DNA of 64,000 nucleotides from contig NZ_CP134949.1 of assembly GCF_032116555.1 (NCBI RefSeq), positions 930,001 through 994,000 on the forward strand, written 5' to 3'. Every line of letters begins with the position of its first letter. Positions within the stretch are counted from its first letter, which is position 1. The notes beneath the pieces were generated by a model. It did no database searches and had not been told where the DNA came from. It worked only from the letters and a program-made list of their open reading frames with translations. Made by a program: the position numbers and the translations under genes. Shown here piece by piece: positions 2,265 through 34,233 of the stretch. The DNA is from Halobaculum sp. XH14 (GTDB lineage Archaea; Halobacteriota; Halobacteria; Halobacteriales; Haloferacaceae).

Positions 2265-3883
2265 CTGCCGACTCGACGGCGACGGTCGACTCGACCGCGG
2301 CCGGCGACACGGACTTCGGCGAGGTGAGCCGCCTGAAGGGGGTCGCGTTCGAGTACCTCACGCTGGGCGCCTCGCTCGTCGGCATTGTCGCGCTCGCGGT
2401 GTTGCTCGGCTACGTCGCCGCCGACGCGATCGGCGTCGGCGCGGCAGACCCGGCGTGGTTCCCCGTCGTTCTCCTCGCGCTCGCCGCCCCGACGCTCGGG
2501 TTCCTGTGGTACGCGGCCCGGACGCCGGACGTCCTCGACGTGATCGAGGGACTCTCCGTCAGGGTCGTCGGCGGCCTCGAACTCGCGGTCGCGCTCGTCG
2601 TCCTGTTCGTCGTCACCGACGTCCAGTTCCTGTTCCTGCTCTACACGGTCGGGGTCCTCCCCGCCGCGGGGCTGTACCTCTACGGCCGCGCCACGGACGA
2701 CTCCCGCGTCGACTTCCCGGTGCCCCTGGCCGTCCTCGCCGTCGGCCTGCTCGCCGGCTACCTGCTGAAGGGGCCGATCGACACGTACCCGCTCGACTCG
2801 CTCATCGGGCTCTGGATGCTGGGCGTCCCCGTCGCGGCCTCCCTCGGGGCGCGCTGGCGGGCGCGGGCCGGCACCGCCGTCGGCCTGGTCGTCGGCGTCG
2901 GCGTGCTCGCGGGCGCGGCCGCCGCGGGGTACGGGCTCGCCGCCGCGTCCGGGCTCGGTCCGGAGGTCGGCGTCGTGCTCGCGCTCACGCCCGGCGCGTT
3001 CCTGCTCTCGTACGCAGGGGAGGTCGCGCTGGACGAGCCGGTCGGTCGGCGGGGGCTGCTGTTCCCGGTCGCCGTGCTCGTCGGCCTGCTCGCGGGACGG
3101 CTCCTCGTCTCGGCGCTCGGACTCGCCGGGCCGGAGCCGTGGATCGACTGGGGCTTTCTCACCAGCGCGCCCTCGCGGTTCGCGGAACAGGCGGGGCTCT
3201 ACCCCGCGATCATCGGCTCGGTGTTCATCATCTCGCTCGTCGCGATGTTCTCGTTCGTCTTCGGGGTCGGCTGTGCGGTGTACCTCGAGGAGTACGCGCC
3301 CGAGTCGGGCTACGGCGGGATGGTCACGAACGTCGTGCAGGTGAACATCTCGAACCTGGCGGGGGTCCCATCGGTGGTGTACGGGCTGCTCGGGCTCGGC
3401 ATCTTCGTGAACCTCGTCGGGCTCGGGTTCGGCATCGTCCTCGTCGCGGCGATGACGCTGTCGCTGCTCATCCTGCCGATCGTCATCATCTCCGCACAGG
3501 AGGCGATCCGGTCGGTGCCCGACTCCCAGCGACAGGCCGCCTACGGCATGGGCGCGACGCGGTGGCAGACGGTGAAGTCGGTCGTCATCCCCGAGGCGCT
3601 CCCGGGCATCCTAACGGGCTCGATCCTGGCGCTCGGCCGCGCCATCGGGGAGACGGCGCCGCTCATCATCATTGGGCTGCCGACGACGATCTTCGCCGCG
3701 CCGACGGGGCTCTTCCAGAAGGGCGCGGCGATGCCGATGCAGATCTACGGCTGGGCGTTCCTCCCGGAGGAGGCGTTCCGGGAGGGCGTGCTCGCGGCCG
3801 GCGTGGTGACCCTGATGGTCGTGCTGCTCTCGATCAACTCGGTCGCCATCTACGTGCGGAACAACTATCAGCGGGGTTCCTAG
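2261..3883 (+). CDS. pstA: Phosphate ABC transporter permease PstA with long N-terminal membrane extension
   Basis: Second permease half of the phosphate importer. The C-terminal 280 or so residues are a normal PstA domain (AAYGMGATRWQTVKS loop; AIGETAPLIIIG). The N-terminal 250 residues hold roughly seven or eight further hydrophobic segments, making the protein 540 residues against about 280-300 in bacteria. I believe extended PstA proteins occur in other haloarchaea, but the role of the extension is unknown. It is coupled to pstC by a 4-base overlap and followed after 3 bases by pstB. Confidence 0.92.
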   Translation: MTADSTATVDSTAAGDTDFGEVSRLKGVAFEYLTLGASLVGIVALAVLLGYVAADAIGVGAADPAWFPVVLLALAAPTLGFLWYAARTPDVLDVIEGLSVRVVGGLELAVALVVLFVVTDVQFLFLLYTVGVLPAAGLYLYGRATDDSRVDFPVPLAVLAVGLLAGYLLKGPIDTYPLDSLIGLWMLGVPVAASLGARWRARAGTAVGLVVGVGVLAGAAAAGYGLAAASGLGPEVGVVLALTPGAFLLSYAGEVALDEPVGRRGLLFPVAVLVGLLAGRLLVSALGLAGPEPWIDWGFLTSAPSRFAEQAGLYPAIIGSVFIISLVAMFSFVFGVGCAVYLEEYAPESGYGGMVTNVVQVNISNLAGVPSVVYGLLGLGIFVNLVGLGFGIVLVAAMTLSLLILPIVIISAQEAIRSVPDSQRQAAYGMGATRWQTVKSVVIPEALPGILTGSILALGRAIGETAPLIIIGLPTTIFAAPTGLFQKGAAMPMQIYGWAFLPEEAFREGVLAAGVVTLMVVLLSINSVAIYVRNNYQRGS

Positions 3884-6114: not shown

Positions 6115-6789
6115 ATGCCCCGAAAGCAGTACCAGGAACGGCTCGCGGAGCTCCGCGAGGACGTGCTCTACATGAGCGAACTGGTCGCCGAGCGCCTCCG
6201 GATGGGCATGGACGCGCTCGAACAGAAGGACGAGGCGCTCGCCCAGGAGGTCATCGAGAAGGACGCCGAGGTGAACCAGCTCTACCTCGAACTCGAACAG
6301 GACTGCGTGGACCTGCTGGCGCTCCAGCAGCCCGTCGCGGGCGACCTGCGCTTCATCGCGGCGTCGTTCAAGATCATCACGGACCTGGAGCGCATCGGCG
6401 ACCTGGCGACGAACCTCGGGGGGTACACCCTCGAGGCCCACCGGGACGTGTTCCCGGACGTCGACGTCCAGCGCATCGGCGAGGCGACCCTCGACATGCT
6501 CGAGGACGCGATGGACGCCTTCGCCGACGAGGACGCGGCCGCCTGCTACGAGGTGTCCGACGCGGACGACACCGTCGACGAGATGTGCGAGGTGGCCAGT
6601 TCCGCGGTCGTGCGTGACCTCATCGAGCGCGAGGGCGTCGACTCCGAGGAGGACGTCGAGGACGTCATGGCGGACGTCTCGCGGCTCCTGTTGACGATCC
6701 GGGACCTCGAACGTGTCGGCGACCACGCGGTCAACATCGCGGCGCGGACGCTCTACATGCTAGAGAACGACGACGAACTCATCTACTGA
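6115..6789 (+). CDS. phoU: Phosphate uptake regulator PhoU
   Basis: Negative modulator of PstSCAB activity and phosphate signalling. The 224-residue, all-helical protein contains two PhoU repeats. The metal-binding type motif ITDLERIGDLATN is in the first repeat and the matching TIRDLERVGDHAVNIA is in the second. I prefer the ATG at 6115, which begins MPRKQYQERL as in the family; an upstream in-frame start at 6007 would add an Arg/Pro-rich stretch unlike PhoU. It is separated from pstB by a lipoprotein gene on the other strand, so it needs its own promoter. Confidence 0.9.
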   Translation: MPRKQYQERLAELREDVLYMSELVAERLRMGMDALEQKDEALAQEVIEKDAEVNQLYLELEQDCVDLLALQQPVAGDLRFIAASFKIITDLERIGDLATNLGGYTLEAHRDVFPDVDVQRIGEATLDMLEDAMDAFADEDAAACYEVSDADDTVDEMCEVASSAVVRDLIEREGVDSEEDVEDVMADVSRLLLTIRDLERVGDHAVNIAARTLYMLENDDELIY

Positions 6790-6804: not shown

Positions 6805-7642
6805 GAACCCCTTTTGCGGGGGTCCTGACCTGAACCTCTTTTGCGGGGGGCATGTCCTCGCGCGTCGGCTTCGCCGACGCGCTGCGGCCAGATCCCCCGC
6901 AAAACCCGTTCATGCCAAAACGCCGCGAGCGAGGGAGCGAAGCGACCGCTGCTCGCGGCACGGACGCTGGTGCAAACCGCATCCGGCTGTTCGGCTACGT
7001 TGGCCCCTGAATCTCATCCTGTTTGACGCGTTCAGTTGGTCTGTCACGTCCTCCGAACGACCAGAGCGAGCAGTGTAGTTCGAGGTCGAACCTCCTCGAA
7101 ACCCGCCACTGGCGGGTTCTGAGTATCGGAGGTGTTTTGTAGCGACGGGCGGGAGTACTGGTAGGCGGCACGGTCAGACGGCACCTTTCAGCCCACATGG
7201 CTTCCATGTGTGGTCACATCGCCGACTGACCTACCCCGTCTCTCTACTACTCACGAGCGGCTGCTACGGCGGTCCAGGAAACACCTGACTGGGCCGATAG
7301 TACGCTACTGCACTCAACGGTCGTTTTCATCGAACTGTACCGAGTCGAGACGTACGACGACATCGATCCGATCGGCGAGGTTGCGACTCTCGGTGCAGGC
7401 GGTAACCACCAGCGTCCGTACCGCGAGCGAGGGAGGCGCGGCGAAGCCGCGCCGACCGTGGCTCGCGGCCTTTTGGCAGTACGGGAAATCGAAGATTTCC
7501 CGTCAGCAGTGGGATTCCACAGGAATCCCACAGCATGAACGGGTTTTGCGGGGGTTCGACGAACGCGGGCCGGCTCTGCCGGCCCGCGAGAGGAGGACCC
7601 CCGCAAAAGAGGTTCAGGTCAGGACCCCCGCAAAAGAGGTTC
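6805..7642. mobile_element. 838-base non-autonomous element with long inverted ends
   Basis: This fills the space between the phoU and cdc48 stop codons. The left end (6805-6980) and right end (about 7395-7642) are inverted copies of one sequence. Both contain the doubled outer unit GAACC(T/C)CTTTTGCGGGGG, then a G+C hairpin, then AAAACCCGTTCATGCC, a GCCGCGAGC...GCTCGCGGC stem, and CACCAGCGTCCGT. The middle (6981-7395) has no intact gene; frame 7230-7535 is open for about 100 codons and reads partly protein-like before entering the repeat. No clear target duplication is visible. It resembles a decayed transposon or MITE-like element. A third single copy is at 31954-32115. Confidence 0.6.
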
Positions 7643-9867
7643 TATTGGAACCCGATCCGCCCGCCCTGGTCCCTGCGGAGCGAGTCCGTCCCGCCGCCCT
7701 TGAACTGCTCCTCGATGCCCTCGTAGTAGCTGAGGATGTCCTCGGAGATGGTCGGCCGGACGTTCTCCATCGCCTGCCGGAAGTGTCGCATGCCGACCTC
7801 CTCGGCGTCGTCGTCCTCGCGGAGCGCCTCGATGGCGGACTCGCGGGCGATCGATTCGAGGTCGGAGCCGACGTAGCCGTCGGTGATCTCGGCGAGTTCG
7901 CGGAGGCTCACGTCGGCGGCCAGCGGCGTGTCGTCGGTGTGGATCTTGAGGATCTGCTCGCGCCCCTCCTCGTCGGGCTGGCCGATCATCACGAGGCGGT
8001 CGAACCGGCCCGAGCGGATGAGCGCCGGGTCGATCATGTCCGGGCGGTTCGTCGCGCCGATGACCATCACGTCACCCATCTCCTCCAGCCCGTCGAGTTC
8101 GGTCAGGAGCTGGTTCACGACGCGCTCGGAGACGTTGTTGCCCATCTCCTGCCCCCGACTCGGTGCGAGGCTGTCCAGTTCGTCGAAGAAGATGATCGTC
8201 GGCGACACCTGGCGGGCCTTCCGGAACGTCTGCCGGATCGCCTTCTCGGACTCGCCGACCCACTTCGAGAGGAGCTGTGGCCCCCTGACGGAGATGAAGT
8301 TCGCGTTCGTCTCGTTGGCGACGGCCTTCGCCATCAGCGTCTTGCCCGTGCCGGGCGGGCCGTACAGCAGGACGCCCTTGGGCGCCTCGACGCCCATGCG
8401 CTGGAACTTCTCGGGGTCCGAGAGCGGCCACTCCACGGCCTCTTTCACCTTCTGCTTGGGGTCCTCCAGCCCGCCGACGTCGTCCCAGGTGATCTTCGGG
8501 AGTTCGACGAGCACCTCGCGCATCGCGGACGGCTCGACGTCCGCGAGCGCGCCGTGGAAGTCGTCCCGCTTGACGATCATCCGGTCGATGAGGCTCGGCG
8601 GGATGTCCTCCTCGTCGAGGTCGATCTCGGGGAGGTACCGGCGGAGCGCCTTCATCGCCGCCTCCTTCGTCAGGCTCTCGATGTCGGCGCCGACGAAGCC
8701 GTGCGTCTCGTCCGCCAGCCGGTCGAGGTCCACGTCGTCCGAGAGCGGCATCCCGCGGGTGTGGATCTGGAGCACCTCCTTCCGGCCCGACTCGTCGGGC
8801 ACGCCGATCTCGATCTCCCGGTCGAACCGACCCGGGCGTCGGAGCGCCGGGTCGACCGAGTCGACGCGGTTCGTCGCCGCGATGACGATGACCTGGCCGC
8901 GCGTCTCCAGCCCGTCCATCATCGTCAACAGCTGTGCGACGACGCGCCGCTCGACCTCGCCGGTGACGTCCTCCCGCTTGGGCGCGATGGAGTCGAGTTC
9001 GTCGATGAAGATGATGGCAGGCGACTCCTCCTTCGCGTCCTCGAAGATCTCCCGGAGCTGCTGTTCGGACTCGCCGTAGTACTTCGAGATGATCTCGGGG
9101 CCGGCGATGGAGAAGAACGAGGCGCTCGTCTCGTTGGCGACCGCCTTCGCCAGCAGCGTCTTCCCGGTGCCGGGCGGGCCGTGGAGCAGCACGCCCTGTG
9201 GCGGCTCGATGCCGAGCTTCTGGAAGATCTGCGGGTGCTTCATCGGGAGTTCGACCATCTCCCGGACCCGCTGGATCTCGCCCTGGAGGCCGCCGATGTC
9301 CTCGTAGGTGATCCCGCCGCCGGTCTTCTCGAACCCGGAGATGGGCTCCTCGCGGAGTTCGACCTCGGTGTCCTCTGTGATGAGGACGACGTCCTCGGGT
9401 TCGGTGTCGACCGCGATGAGGGGGATCGCCTGGCCCGGCGAGCGCATGAACGGGTGGTTCGTGCTCGACATCACCGGCACGATGTCGCGCTCGACGACGG
9501 GACGCTTGAGGATCTGGCGTTTCACCATCCCCGCCGCGTCGGAGCCGAACTGGACCGACGCCTCCTCGGGCGGCGCGAGCGTGAGGCTCTCGGCCTTCTG
9601 GGCCTCCGCCTTGCGAATCGTCACCCGTTCGCCGATGCCGACGTCGGCGTTCTGGCGTGTGAAGCCGTCGATGCGGACCGTGTCCGTGTTCCAGTCCTGC
9701 CGGTCGGCACGCCACACCTTCGCCGCGGTGGTCTCGGCACCCTCGATCTCGATGATGTCGCCGGGGGAGAGCTTCAGGTGGAGCAGCGTGTCGGGGTCGA
9801 GACGCGCGATGCCGCGCCCCGAGTCGTTCGGGTAAGCCTTCGCAACTTCGAGTTGGACTTCGTTCAT
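7642..9867 (-). CDS. cdc48: AAA ATPase Cdc48/p97 (VAT-type)
   Basis: Hexameric unfoldase that extracts and unfolds proteins for proteasomal degradation. The 741-residue product has the Cdc48 N domain (about 1-185, double-psi barrel and CDC48_2), then D1 and D2 AAA modules, each with GPPGTGKT, a Walker B ([18 protein letters not shown]) and an arginine-finger region ([16 protein letters not shown]). The C-terminus is Gly/Arg-rich. Start ATG at 9867 gives [13 protein letters not shown], the conserved beginning. The TTAA-type promoter at about 9917-9920 lies upstream. The stop codon overlaps the end of the neighbouring repeat element. Confidence 0.95.
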
Positions 9868-14531: not shown

Positions 14532-15356
14532 TTACGGGCGGCCGTTGCCGTTCCCGCGGTCGTCGTCTTCATCGTCGTCGTCGTCATCCTCGTCGTCTTC
14601 ATCGTCGTCGTCGTCATCCTCGTCGTCGGTGTCGTCGTCCTCGTCGTGGACGTCCTCGGGCGGACCCGCGTCGTCCGGCCGGCCGCGGTCGTCTTCCTCG
14701 TCCTCGTCGTCAGCGTCCTCGTCGTCAGCGTCCTCGTCGGACGGGCCGATGTCGTCCGGTCGGCCGCGATCCTCGGGAGCGCCGACGTCCTCGGGCGACT
14801 TCTCGCCGGAGGCGACGTCGTGGAGCGCCTCGCCGAGCGTCGTGTTCTTGTTCAGGTCACCGTCGAGGTAGGCGTTGATGACGGCGTGGATGTTCTCGAC
14901 GCGCTCGTCGGCCTGCTCGGGCATCTCGCTCGGCGGGCCGCGCGTCTCGTTCTCCTCCTCGTCGTCCCCCTCGTCGGCGTAGGAGAACTCGCCCTCCTCG
15001 AGGGTCAGCGAGTCGTTCTCCACGCTGTAGACGAACTCGCCGGTGACGTTCTCGCCCGTCACCGTGACGGTGAACTCCGAGGCGTTCGTCTCGAAGGTGA
15101 TCCGCCCGTCCGCGTCGGTCGTTCCGACGGGCTCCTCGTCGACGGCGACGTCGAGCCCCTCGACGCCCGAGCCGTTGGCGGTGACCTCGAACGTCACCGT
15201 GCCGTTGTCGTAGCTCGCGTCCGCGTCGTATTCGTCGAGGTCGGCGTCGGTCGCCGCGCTCGCGTTCGTTCCCCCCGTGCCGGCCGCGGCGGCCCCCGCA
15301 CCGGCGCTCACCAGGAGCGCGGCGGCGGCGACCGTGAGCAGTTTTCGGACGTTCAT
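14532..15356 (-). CDS. Secreted protein with very acidic repetitive tail
   Basis: 274 residues. Sec-type signal peptide (residues 1-26, cleavage probably in the GAAAAG region), then a beta-rich Asn/Thr/Glu domain (about 45-125) resembling a carboxypeptidase-regulatory or Ig-like fold, a helical segment (about 140-180), and a tail dominated by Asp/Glu with GRPDD(I/A)GP spacers. The tail DNA contains an exact 30-base tandem duplication at 14561-14620. TTTTATGG at about 15385-15394 provides a TATA. Function unknown; related tail-bearing exported proteins are common in haloarchaea. Confidence 0.7.
   Translation of the reverse strand: MNVRKLLTVAAAALLVSAGAGAAAAGTGGTNASAATDADLDEYDADASYDNGTVTFEVTANGSGVEGLDVAVDEEPVGTTDADGRITFETNASEFTVTVTGENVTGEFVYSVENDSLTLEEGEFSYADEGDDEEENETRGPPSEMPEQADERVENIHAVINAYLDGDLNKNTTLGEALHDVASGEKSPEDVGAPEDRGRPDDIGPSDEDADDEDADDEDEEDDRGRPDDAGPPEDVHDEDDDTDDEDDDDDDEDDEDDDDDDEDDDRGNGNGRP
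14561..14620. repeat. Exact 30-base tandem duplication in acidic tail
   Basis: The unit at 14561-14590 is repeated without change at 14591-14620. It encodes runs of Asp/Glu on the minus strand and lies inside a longer GTC/ATC-rich low-complexity stretch (about 14555-14760), so tail length is likely to vary between strains by slippage. Confidence 0.85.
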
Positions 15357-15955: not shown

Positions 15956-16065
15956 GGTTGTTTCGGTCGTCACTTCGACCGCCTCGAAAGCCCCCGTGGC
16001 GCTCGACTTCTGCGGTTGTTTGGTCATCGCTTCGACTACCTCGAAAGCCCCCGCGGCGCTCGACT
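15956..16065. repeat. 58-base tandem duplication
   Basis: Two imperfect copies, starting GGTTGTTT at 15956 and at 16014. Each contains CTCGAAAGCCCCCG(T/C)GGC followed by GCTCGACT. The CTCGAAAGCCCCC core belongs to the second dispersed repeat family of this window (also at 20304, 20524, 24664, 32489 and 34100). Confidence 0.8.
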
Positions 16066-16200
16066 CGGTGCGGCCGCTGCGCTCCTCGCGCTCGCTTCGC
16101 TCGCGCTGTCGTTCGAAAATCGAAGATTTTCGTGATGACGAGAGAGCGGAGCTCTCTCGAACCACGGTGCTTGTCGGTCCGCGCCGTCCCCGAGAGGAGC

Positions 16201-19181: not shown

Positions 19182-19627
19182 GTGGTGCGGTATCGCGGAC
19201 GGCCACTTAACGGTCCCGACATGATACCCCCGGTACAGTCCCGCGCTGGGCCGTGCTTTCGGTGGTTCTCGTGCGGGCCTGTATTGCACCGACGACGCGG
19301 GAAGGCCGGGTGGACGGTGCACACGGGGAGCCGATGACCGACGCTGAATACGGGGAGACCTACCGGCTGGCGAGCGTGACCGCGAGCTTCGGAGGGCGAG
19401 CGGACGCGTGCGAGGGACGAGCGTCGCAGGCTCGCGAACGGAGCGAGCGAAGCGCACAGCGAGGCGCAGGAGCCGAACGATGCGGGGGCTTTCGGGGCGG
19501 TCGTCACGACTCCCGGGACAGTACTGAGTGCCCCATATCGACCGCCGATCGGCGCTCACCGGACGGAGCCCCGCGAACTCCCGCGACAGAATAGACTTTT
19601 CCCGAACCCGCAACCACACTGGACGTA
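19182..19627. other. Divergent intergenic region
   Basis: 446 bases between the starts of the DUF92 gene and a prenyltransferase homologue. No credible gene. The middle (about 19385-19500) is a GC-rich run of short self-complementary GCGAGC/GCTCGC words ending in GCGGGGGCTTTCG (19482-19494), a piece of the second dispersed repeat family in reverse. TAGACTTTTC at about 19594 is the likely TATA for the plus-strand gene. Confidence 0.6.
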
Positions 19628-24573: not shown

Positions 24574-24663
24574 GTTTCGGTGTGGCCGTCGGATCGTGAA
24601 AAAGGGACTCGGTCGCGGAGATGACGGGGACCGGAAGCCCGCCCGGCTCACGAGCACTCACCC

Positions 24664-24685
24664 GAGCGCCGCGGGGGCTTTCCAG
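24664..24685 (-). repeat. Dispersed repeat, family 2, half copy
   Basis: AGCGCCGCGGGGGCTTTCCAG, reverse complement of the CTCGAAAGCCCCCGCGGCGCT block. The partner block with GGCCCCTTTCAGTC is absent here. It sits in the cofG-acyl-CoA dehydrogenase divergent promoter region. Confidence 0.6.
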
Positions 24686-24777
24686 GCGTGCGACACGACG
24701 GCAGACCAATCCACGAAATCGAGCGCCCGAGCCGCCTCCATCGAGAGAATCGGGCGACGTTCGAAACCCGACTCCAC

Positions 24778-31102: not shown

Positions 31103-31900
31103 ATGGTCGCCCTCGAGTCGGTTCTGGTCGTCGCTGTCGCCGGGTTGGTGACGGCGCTGGCGACCGGACTCGGCGCCCTCCCGTTCTTCGTCGTCGAGGA
31201 CCTCTCCGACAGGTGGAACGTCGCGCTGTGGGGGCTCGCCTCGGGGATCATGGTCGCGGCCTCCGTGTTCGGCCTCGTGTTCGAGGGGCTGGCGGAGGGG
31301 ACGCCGTTCCGCGTCGGCGTCGGTGCCGTCGCGGGGGTCGCGCTCGTCGCGGTTGCCCGCGACGTGGTGATGGACGCCGACATCGACCCGAAGGAGTACG
31401 AGGAGGCGGACTTCAGGAAACTGGTGCTCATCCTCGGCGTGCTCACGGTCCACTCGTTCCCCGAGGGCGTCGCGGTCGGCGTCTCGTTCGCGGACCTGGG
31501 CCTGGACGGAGGGTTGCAGGTGCTGGGGCTCTCGGTGCCGCTGCTCGCGGTGGTCATGACGCTCGCCATCTCGATCCACAACGTCCCGGAGGGCGTCGCC
31601 GTGTCGATTCCGCTCCGGTCGATCGGGATCTCCCCGCCGCGGATGGTCTGGTGGGCCGTGTTCTCCAGCCTCCCGCAGCCGATCGGCGCGGTCATCGCGT
31701 TCGCGTTCGTCAGATACGCGCGAGCGTTCCTGCCGGCGGGCTTCGGCTTCGCCGCGGGCGCGATGGTGTACCTCGTGCTCTCGGAGTTCGTGCCGGAGGC
31801 GCTCGAGACCGGCGCGGACCTCCCGAGCGGCGGGAAGCGGGAACTGACCGCGGGCATCGTCGTCGGCGTCCTGGCCATGGTTCCGCTGCTGTGGATCTAG
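31103..31900 (+). CDS. ZIP-family divalent metal transporter
   Basis: 265 residues, eight membrane helices. The metal-path motifs are HSFPEGVAVGVSF (helix 4) and SIHNVPEGVAVSIPL (helix 5), with the usual His-x-x-Pro-Glu-Gly pairs. A short His-poor cytoplasmic loop (about 92-108, Asp/Glu/Lys-rich) sits between helices 3 and 4. Likely imports zinc, manganese or iron. Leaderless promoter (TTTATT 31074-31079). Convergent with a small gene, with a repeat between them. Confidence 0.92.
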   Translation: MVALESVLVVAVAGLVTALATGLGALPFFVVEDLSDRWNVALWGLASGIMVAASVFGLVFEGLAEGTPFRVGVGAVAGVALVAVARDVVMDADIDPKEYEEADFRKLVLILGVLTVHSFPEGVAVGVSFADLGLDGGLQVLGLSVPLLAVVMTLAISIHNVPEGVAVSIPLRSIGISPPRMVWWAVFSSLPQPIGAVIAFAFVRYARAFLPAGFGFAAGAMVYLVLSEFVPEALETGADLPSGGKRELTAGIVVGVLAMVPLLWI

Positions 31901-31953: not shown

Positions 31954-32115
31954 TGCGGCCTGCACCAGCGTCAGTGCCGCGAGCGAGGGAGGCGAGACGA
32001 AGCCGCGCCGACTGCTGCTCGCGGCGTTTTGGCATGAACGGGTTTTGCGGGGGTTCGACGAGCGCGGGCCGGCGGAGCCGGCCCGCGTGAGGAGGACCCC
32101 CGTCAAAAGAGGTTC
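31954..32115 (+). repeat. Single copy of the 6805-7642 end repeat
   Basis: Contains, in order, GCGGCCTGCACCAGCGTC, the GCCGCGAGC...GCTCGCGGC stem, GTTTTGGCATGAACGGG, TTTTGCGGGGGTTCGACG, a perfect 11-base hairpin (CGCGGGCCGGC-GGA-GCCGGCCCGCG), then GAGGACCCCCGTCAAAAGAG. The outer end overlaps the stop codon of the minus-strand gene at 32114. It lies between two convergent genes, like the first copy. Confidence 0.8.
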
Positions 32116-32398
32116 AGTGCGAGTGACCCATCGCGTCCTGGAGGCTCTGCCCGAAGCGCTCCTCGAACAGTTCCTCGGCCTTCGCGTTGATCTCCTCGAC
32201 GTCGGCGGGCGTCTCGCCCTGCGAGTGGTGCGCGAGCGCGTGGGCCTGCTGTGCGAACGCCTGCAACACGACGTCGCTGATGACGCGGCTCGGCTCCTCG
32301 CCCTGTTCGGCCATCATGTCGACGAGCCCCGCGGGCAGGTCGACGGTGTCGGTGTCGCCGTCCGGTCCCTCGACGGTGTAGGTTTCCGAATCAACCAT
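32114..32398 (-). CDS. Small conserved haloarchaeal protein, 94 residues
   Basis: Unknown function; I think a haloarchaeal-only family (possibly DUF7545), number uncertain. It reads MVDSETYTVEGPDGDTDTVDL, then helical segments LPAGLVDMMAEQGEEPSRVISDVVLQAFAQQAHALAHHSQGE, an amphipathic acidic helix NAKAEELFEERFGQSL, and a His-containing end. ATG at 32398. A palindrome (32418-32431) covers its TATA. The stop codon overlaps the 31954-32115 repeat. Confidence 0.75.
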   Translation of the reverse strand: MVDSETYTVEGPDGDTDTVDLPAGLVDMMAEQGEEPSRVISDVVLQAFAQQAHALAHHSQGETPADVEEINAKAEELFEERFGQSLQDAMGHSH

Positions 32399-32488: not shown

Positions 32489-32635
32489 CTCGGAAGCCCC
32501 CGCGGCGCTGCGGTCGCGCGCCTCGTTGCGCTTCTCGCACTCGCTCGCTTCGCTCGGTCGCGCTGCGGTGCGTACGTCGTCGGGCTTCCCGCAGCGCCAC
32601 GGCCCCTTCCAGTCCCGCCCGTGGCCGGTCGTGCC
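32489..32635 (+). repeat. Dispersed repeat, family 2, full copy left of trxB
   Basis: Begins with CTCGGAAGCCCCCGCGGCGCT (32489-32509) and ends with GGCCCCTTCCAGTCCCGCCC followed by GTGGCCGGTCGTGCC (to 32635). The last 35 bases are the near-exact reverse complement (34 of 35) of 34035-34069 on the other side of trxB. Confidence 0.85.
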
Positions 32636-32776
32636 CGTCGTCGCGGGCGAATGGCTGGTGAGCACGAGCCGTGGGAAGTCAGTAGCCGTCGCGGGCGAAA
32701 GTCTGGTGGGTGCGAACCATCGGAAGTCGGCAGTCGTCGCGGTCGGAGGACGGTCGTAACGAAGTCGAGAGGCCGG

Positions 32777-33829: not shown

Positions 33830-34233
33830 TGCTCACGGGTACTCGCCTGGCCGGTTTGTAGGTTGTGCTGTCCGGCGCGCGACCCGCATGCCCGTCACCG
33901 TCTCACACGCCGATTCGCCCTCCGCCCGCCGCCGAGCCGTTCACCCCGCACGCCGCGAGAATCCGAACTCCCCACGGCCGTACGAGCGGGTGTCGGCAAA
34001 CGACGGTCGAACGACCGTCCGCCCCGCGACGCTCGGCACGACCGGCCACGGGTGGGACTGGAAGGGGCCGCCTCGCTCGGCGAACCCCGGACCCGGTGAG
34101 GCGGGGGCTTCCGCGGTCGTCGCGGTGGCGGTAGTGGTGAGGTGCCGGGTAGCTGAAACAGCAAATGCACGAGACACGGATGAGAGCCGAAGCACTCACC
34201 ACCCTCCCGATACCACACACGAACCAGAAACCG
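33830..34233. other. Intergenic region upstream of trxB
   Basis: 404 bases between divergent genes. Contains the inverted family 2 copy (34035-34114) and nothing else of note. Start-like ATGs at about 34165 and 34180 would add an N-terminus without family character to the 94-residue gene at 34234. Confidence 0.6.
34035..34114 (-). repeat. Dispersed repeat, family 2, inverted copy right of trxB
   Basis: GGCACGACCGGCCACGGG, then TGGGACTGGAAGGGGCC, a short spacer, and GAGGCGGGGGCTTCCG at the far end. The first 35 bases match the reverse complement of 32601-32635 with one mismatch. Confidence 0.85.

Follow-up and report, generated by a model that had tools for sequence, protein, structure and literature searches.

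Transcription in archaea can end at U-tracts without the need for a hairpin (PMC8716108, PMC7237163). In Haloferax, T-stretches were reported as an intergenic termination signal, T5C ending 95% of transcripts in an in vivo reporter (PMC7237163); aCPSF1 was reported to bind RNAs with two U4 tracts best and not to bind those with U3, and in Methanococcus two U-tracts led to the highest termination in vivo (PMC8716108). As far as the available parts of these accounts go, terminators of this aCPSF1/FttA type are described as short motifs. Among mobile repeats, the closest kinds are the PATE and SMR of Haloquadratum walsbyi, which, in the available part of their description, are haloarchaeal and transposase-free, with near-terminal palindromes and no evident target duplication (PMC3119063).

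The repeat analyzed here was noted at positions 31954-32115 of a window of 64,000 nucleotides (G000:C1:930001-994000), by which we mean the whole stretch of DNA under study. It resembles the U-tract terminators in having a T4-T7 tract behind genes and two tracts on one strand, and differs from them in being a homologous unit of 100-260 nt whose two hairpins covary, which has tracts on both strands, and whose position at the stop codon is fixed. As in a bacterial Rho-independent terminator, its + strand carries a GC-rich hairpin directly followed by a T-tract. However, the T-tract of the gene that it abuts precedes its hairpin (hairpin B below), a second T-tract and hairpin follow, and the host is an archaeon; the order of hairpin and then T-tract is found only on the strand opposite to the abutted gene (hairpin A). 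REP/RAYT sequences are likewise dispersed extragenic palindromes, some of them near stop codons, but the present element is a longer two-hairpin unit with T-tracts, and no Y1 (RAYT/TnpA) transposase was found in genomes G000, G001, G002 and G020 (PF01797, 0 matches). From PATE and SMR it is set apart by its strict stop placement, its covariation, its T-tracts and its order-wide occurrence at the same genes; as to the PATE/IS605 comparison, no IS605-type transposase was found in the genus of the window.

Rfam 15 gave 0 matches in the window at gathering thresholds and 0 matches up to E 0.1 in five element loci, and we found no description of the element in the published literature. On comparative sequence grounds, we consider it likely that the element is an ancient, dispersed haloarchaeal transcription terminator and border, portable and acting in two directions, of the aCPSF1/FttA U-tract type. 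The homology of its copies, their structure, geometry and conservation, and their association with genes are shown by the results presented here.

Copies in the window and anatomy of the element

The window contains three copies, including the repeat at 31954-32115. In window coordinates, the copies, their parts and their neighbours are:

6115..6789, + strand: phoU (Pfam PhoU)
6805..6831, - strand: extra right-end piece GAACCCCTTTTGCGGGGGTCCTGACCT, degenerate, in the interval between phoU and the second copy
6832..6972, - strand: second copy, facing phoU (84.9 bits)
7407..7615, + strand: third copy, of the long form, in which two additional hairpins (about 7480-7533) separate A from B (68.7 bits)
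7616..7641, + strand: extra right-end piece of the third copy
7642..9867, - strand: cdc48 (Pfam CDC48); the element is also carried by homologues of this gene in families f1, f4, f5 and f10
31103..31900, + strand: left-hand gene, ZIP family transporter (Pfam Zip); its stop lies 62 nt ahead of the element
31963..32115, + strand: complete copy (covariance model R2 positions 1-136; 99.3 bits, E 1.5e-23)
31976..32025, + strand: hairpin A, with arms GCCGCGAGC (31976-31984) and GCTCGCGGC (32017-32025)
32027..32030, + strand: first T-tract, 1 nt past hairpin A; T4 here, T5-T6 in other genera
32036..32115, + strand: hairpin B, GAAC..GTTTTGCGGGGG / CCCCCGTCAAAA..GTTC, with a GC-rich tip
32043..32046, + strand: second T-tract, 12 nt past the first, within the left arm of hairpin B
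32105..32108, - strand: T-tract on the strand of the 94-residue gene, beginning 6 nt past its stop; it reads AAAA on the + strand, in the right arm of hairpin B
32114..32398, - strand: right-hand gene, DUF7545 protein of 94 aa (Pfam); its stop (TCA at 32114-32116) overlaps the right end of the element

The second and third copies face one another between phoU and cdc48. An earlier note, made from the letters of the window, had described the repeat as adjoining or overlapping stop codons, and this was borne out: it overlaps that of the 94-residue gene (32114-32116), touches that of cdc48 (7642) and begins 15 nt past that of phoU (6789). The post-stop sequence quoted there, AACCTCTTTTGCGGGGG, is exact at cdc48, while the strand of the 94-residue gene reads AACCTCTTTTGACGGGGG. 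The hairpins exceed chance (z -3.9 on the gene strand, with 0 of 200 shuffles folding equally well). A scan for bacterial terminators gave 0 sites at a threshold of 5 T, and in this genus the tract is only T4; both points count against a terminator.

From left to right, the element comprises hairpin A, a first T-tract, a gap of 8-12 nt, another T-tract and hairpin B, followed by the stop codon of the right-hand gene. Its total length is 100-260 nt, and the right arm of hairpin B holds an A-tract that constitutes a T-tract on the other strand. Many copies have extra hairpins between A and B, as at 7480-7533 in the window, which implies that the element is modular.

T-tracts were counted in 100 sites of nine other genomes, comprising 90 matches from outside the genus with E up to ~1e-9 and 10 weaker ones (9 of G377 and 1 of G311). 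Among these copies, picked by BLAST or by models already containing T-tracts, the gene strand close to the right end had, as its longest T-tract, T5 in 51, T6 in 43 and T7, T4 and T3 in 2 each; that is, at least T5 in 96 and at least T4 in 98, the latter being what is expected of U-tract terminators on the coding strand shortly past the stop. The + strand of 96 of the 100 copies carried two tracts of at least T4, exactly 8 nt apart in 93 (shuffles, 7/2000), which corresponds to the aCPSF1-type arrangement of two U4+ tracts close together on one RNA, and one tract of at least T4 was present on the other strand, also in 96. In the genus of the window, at least two T4 tracts were found on the + strand of 34 of 46 full copies, with a spacing of 12 nt in 20. 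A T5 occurred within 25 nt past the stop in 70 of the 76 genes with an abutting element, compared with 9 of 206 other genes at the same loci.

The pairing of the hairpins is conserved through compensatory change. In alignment A3 (49 copies, fitted to the structure of the model and selected by the same BLAST or model matches that already contained T-tracts), 95.5% of the cells pair, the covariation score is 0.411 as against 0.097 +/- 0.010 for shuffled alignments and at most 0.057 for slid versions, and 189 cells are altered on both sides against 59 in the shuffled ones. The pair at the base of the stem swaps from C-G to G-C in 20 of 48 copies, while three T:A pairs never swap (48, 48 and 49 of 49). 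A MAFFT alignment of 38 copies, made without fitting to the structure, gave both-side changes in 10 of 24 predicted pairs and in none of the four T:A pairs. Covarying stems together with fixed T:A pairs indicate that either selection or the copying mechanism maintains the pairing, and that the identity of the T residues is maintained as well.

Two further features of the stems were seen in alignment A1. The motif GAGCGAG is present in both arms of hairpins A and B and would produce tandem G.A mismatches confined to the + strand. Copies differ in the orientation of the tip of hairpin B (L087, L107, L109 and others), with CATGTCCTCGCGCG... to the left or to the right of the tip, as if the tip had been inverted between the arms of the stem.

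Position of the element relative to genes

The position of the element was analyzed in sets of 59, 22, 40 and 100 copies that overlap in part, with genes taken from a codon-usage caller, except in the Halobellus limi record, where the NCBI annotation was used. The set from the genus of the window derived from 52 loci around BLAST matches in three genomes, in which a profile defined 59 sites; before clustering, weak antisense matches of the model were removed where their overlap with a stronger match exceeded 20 nt. Measured from the stop codon of the right-hand gene, the right end lay at -3 to 20 nt in 47 of these 59 sites, against 4.15% for random placement and orientation in the same intergenic DNA (P ~7e-54). 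The left end was so placed in only 2 of the 59, and in 1 of the 100 sites of the nine other genomes. When orthologous sites were collapsed, 25 of 30 clusters had at least one fitting member and in 20 of 30 all members fitted.

The same position was found beyond the genus, in 20 of 22 loci of other genera of the family (the sequence of L076 being that of L063) and in 24 of 40 loci of a further set. In the nine other genomes, the distance of the right end from a stop was again -3 to 20 nt in 74 of 100 copies, against a null of 4.1%; as the model holds no gene information, this test is independent, except for the sites that belonged to its training set. Thus the bias to gene 3' ends that the earlier note had proposed to look for in other copies proved very strong and order-wide. 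Its statement that copies lie between convergent genes is true of all three in the window, but in the genus as a whole only 31 of 59 sites are convergent. At 23 sites the genes are tandem and the right-hand one has its end at the element, at 4 they are tandem and just the left-hand one ends there, and 1 site is divergent. Likewise, the 100 sites elsewhere divide into 38 convergent, 41 tandem, 13 with only the left-hand gene ending and 8 that are divergent or have one side without a called gene. The defining feature is therefore one particular end placed at a stop codon in one fixed orientation, and convergence is not the rule.

Plasmid records gave three matches, of which that of Halobellus limi alone follows this placement, with the element 1 nt from the annotated stop of DV707_RS15730 on NZ_CP031312.1. 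In the Haloarcula record (L413) the element is reversed and the annotated stop at 1457 is some tens of nt away, and in the Halovenus record (L412) no annotated gene end lies near it.

A second class of positions comprises 19 of the 100 sites, which face a gene start; in about 11 of them the right end lies 30-46 nt upstream of the start codon, that is, abutting the promoter. In the genome of the window, L078 (39 nt) and L271 (40 nt) are of this kind, and in the genus the class was seen at L078, L107, L125 and L271. Since 19 of 100 sites face starts, a function as terminator of the right-hand gene leaves some copies uncovered. A set of near-identical copies in family f7, located tens to hundreds of nt from stops, also counts against that function.

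Distribution, shared genes and signs of mobility

A first covariance model, built from 38 copies, matched 156 of 392 genomes of the order Halobacteriales, from at least 47 of the 95 genera sampled (E <=1e-5, with 8 candidates scored per genome). The broader model R2 gave between 12 and 51 matches per genome in 10 genomes from six families (E <=1e-3). When 120 genomes sampled from the phylum were searched, it had matches in 12 of the 19 inside the order and in 0 of the 101 outside Halobacteriales, a result that doubles as the negative control of the model. Copies were present in Halobellus limi (Haloferacaceae) and Halolamina rubra. Judged from the sequences, the size and age of the family go far beyond what the window would lead one to expect.

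The genes behind which the element stands are in part the same across families. The 164 sites of 45 genomes already placed within -3 to 20 nt of a stop, the only ones clustered, fell into 77 clusters of right-hand genes, of which 13 span at least two families as a raw count. Among the cross-family genes are the housekeeping genes cdc48, menB, porB, EF-2, transcription factor S (TFS), DnaJ, the large subunit of PolD and a KaiC-like gene, and in addition an acyl-CoA dehydrogenase.

This recurrence weighs against the likeliest alternative, that of a mobile repeat of the SMR, PATE or REP kind, selfish and transposase-free, that inserts or survives only at the edges of transcription units, its T-tracts being a recognition sequence for mobility and any terminator effect incidental. 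Single sites are indeed gained or lost between sister species: the copies at truB and ilvE are present in G002 and absent from G000, G001 and seven other compared genomes, and the one at etfA was seen in G001, G077, G004 and G085 but is missing from G000, G002, G020, G066, G086 and G102 (the three gene names are our reading of the protein sequences, not a family search). In 85 of 100 cases the nearest relative of a copy was in the same genome, some copies have repeated right ends or extra hairpins, the second class of sites adjoins promoters, and family f7 contains near-identical copies; all of this speaks for a mobile repeat. However, between the close genomes G077 and G102 a few dozen nt are replaced behind etfA with no visible target duplication, and the etfA and truB comparisons gave neither a clean target duplication nor a clean empty site. 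The absence of a Y1 transposase from the four genomes searched, and the retention of T:A identity where pairing alone would permit swaps, also speak against this alternative, which we regard as unlikely.

Three candidates connected with mobility were rejected. A resident IS200/IS605 or RAYT transposase was discarded as the mover in the genus of the window, where no Y1 transposase was found. A general terminator motif as the target is contradicted by GAACCTCTTTT: its 40 occurrences in the three genomes of the genus all fall, by coordinates, at known right ends of the element, indicating that the tract arrives with the element. An autonomous long element at L123 was discarded as well: at L123:2579-4058 a foreign-looking gene (2784-3875) separates the two halves, A and B, of one copy, and this gene, which we take from its sequence to be an alcohol dehydrogenase, is not a transposase.

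As to the terminal inverted repeats and target duplication that characterize SMR/MITE sequences, an inverted CGRTCAGTACAGC end was present in some f7 copies (L257) and none was seen in the genus of the window. The f7 copies (L252-L266 and L302-L310) have a longer right end, GCTGTACTGACCG, to which L257 has a matching inverted left end; the near-identical ones are perhaps an active mobile form.

Proposed role

The conservation of T-tracts on both strands beyond the needs of pairing makes a bidirectional terminator the best reading. The suggestion of such a terminator in the earlier note is in this respect upheld, with the amendments that convergence is not required (41 of 100 sites being tandem) and that the T-tract of the abutted gene lies ahead of the hairpin. 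From the tracts and their placement we infer termination itself and the use of aCPSF1; by analogy with the described U-tract terminators, FttA/aCPSF1 is probably involved. On the strand of the abutted gene, the T4-T6 tract a few nt past the stop would cause the archaeal RNA polymerase to release the mRNA. On the other strand, which presents hairpin A, a T-tract, 8-12 nt, a T-tract and hairpin B, aCPSF1/FttA would act at the paired U-tracts, so that this strand would arrest transcription before it enters the right-hand gene, be it read-through of a convergent gene or antisense. In both classes of sites the strand with two T-tracts faces transcription entering the right-hand unit, which suggests a border as well as a terminator. 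New sites would arise via copying.

A wider form of this proposal, which we put forward tentatively, is that the elements could be order-wide, self-copying, transposase-free "plug-in" terminators that are installed exactly at the borders of transcription units, past stops or a short way upstream of promoters, that always turn the double-U-tract side towards entering transcription, and that have been kept behind the same core genes across families. Already the narrower reading, if correct, would provide a defined terminator part with dozens of natural copies, homologous, with two covarying hairpins and located behind the stops of core genes. Experiments could then address the contribution of hairpins to termination in archaea, the way in which paired U-tracts are used by aCPSF1/FttA and the shielding of prokaryotic genes against antisense transcription. 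One would also have to ask by what means a non-coding element locates stop codons when no transposase is resident.

An mRNA 3'-end structure controlling stability or translation seems improbable to us. In E. coli, REPs within 15 nt of a stop were reported to lower translation, and hairpin B, which starts a few nt past the stop, falls inside the range given in the available part of that report (PMC12306157). Nevertheless, the T-tracts follow the stop and precede the hairpin, so that the mRNA would end before the hairpin is reached, the conservation of the opposite-strand T-tracts would be left unexplained, and it is the opposite, + strand that folds better (L272, z -6.9 vs -4.6).

Integron attC sites also follow stop codons in a fixed orientation; a recombination site of that type, which the fixed orientation of the element and the foreign-looking gene between the two halves of the L123 copy would fit, is nonetheless highly improbable, as the copies are single and dispersed behind core genes, not in cassette arrays.

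Besides the two-way terminator proposed here, the window contains other repeats. A second dispersed family (CTCGAAAGCCCCCGYGGCGCT ..., with inverted copies), GC-rich and intergenic, occurs at 15962-16071, 19465-19520, 24654-24727, ~32490-32610 and 34023-34089, and was also seen at L160 behind ilvE of G000, where the terminator-like element is absent. Two tandem 48-bp units, 77% alike, lie at 32639-32734 between the two genes to the right of the element, and a low-complexity repeat of CGTCGTCTTCATCGTCG-like units spans 14543-14742.
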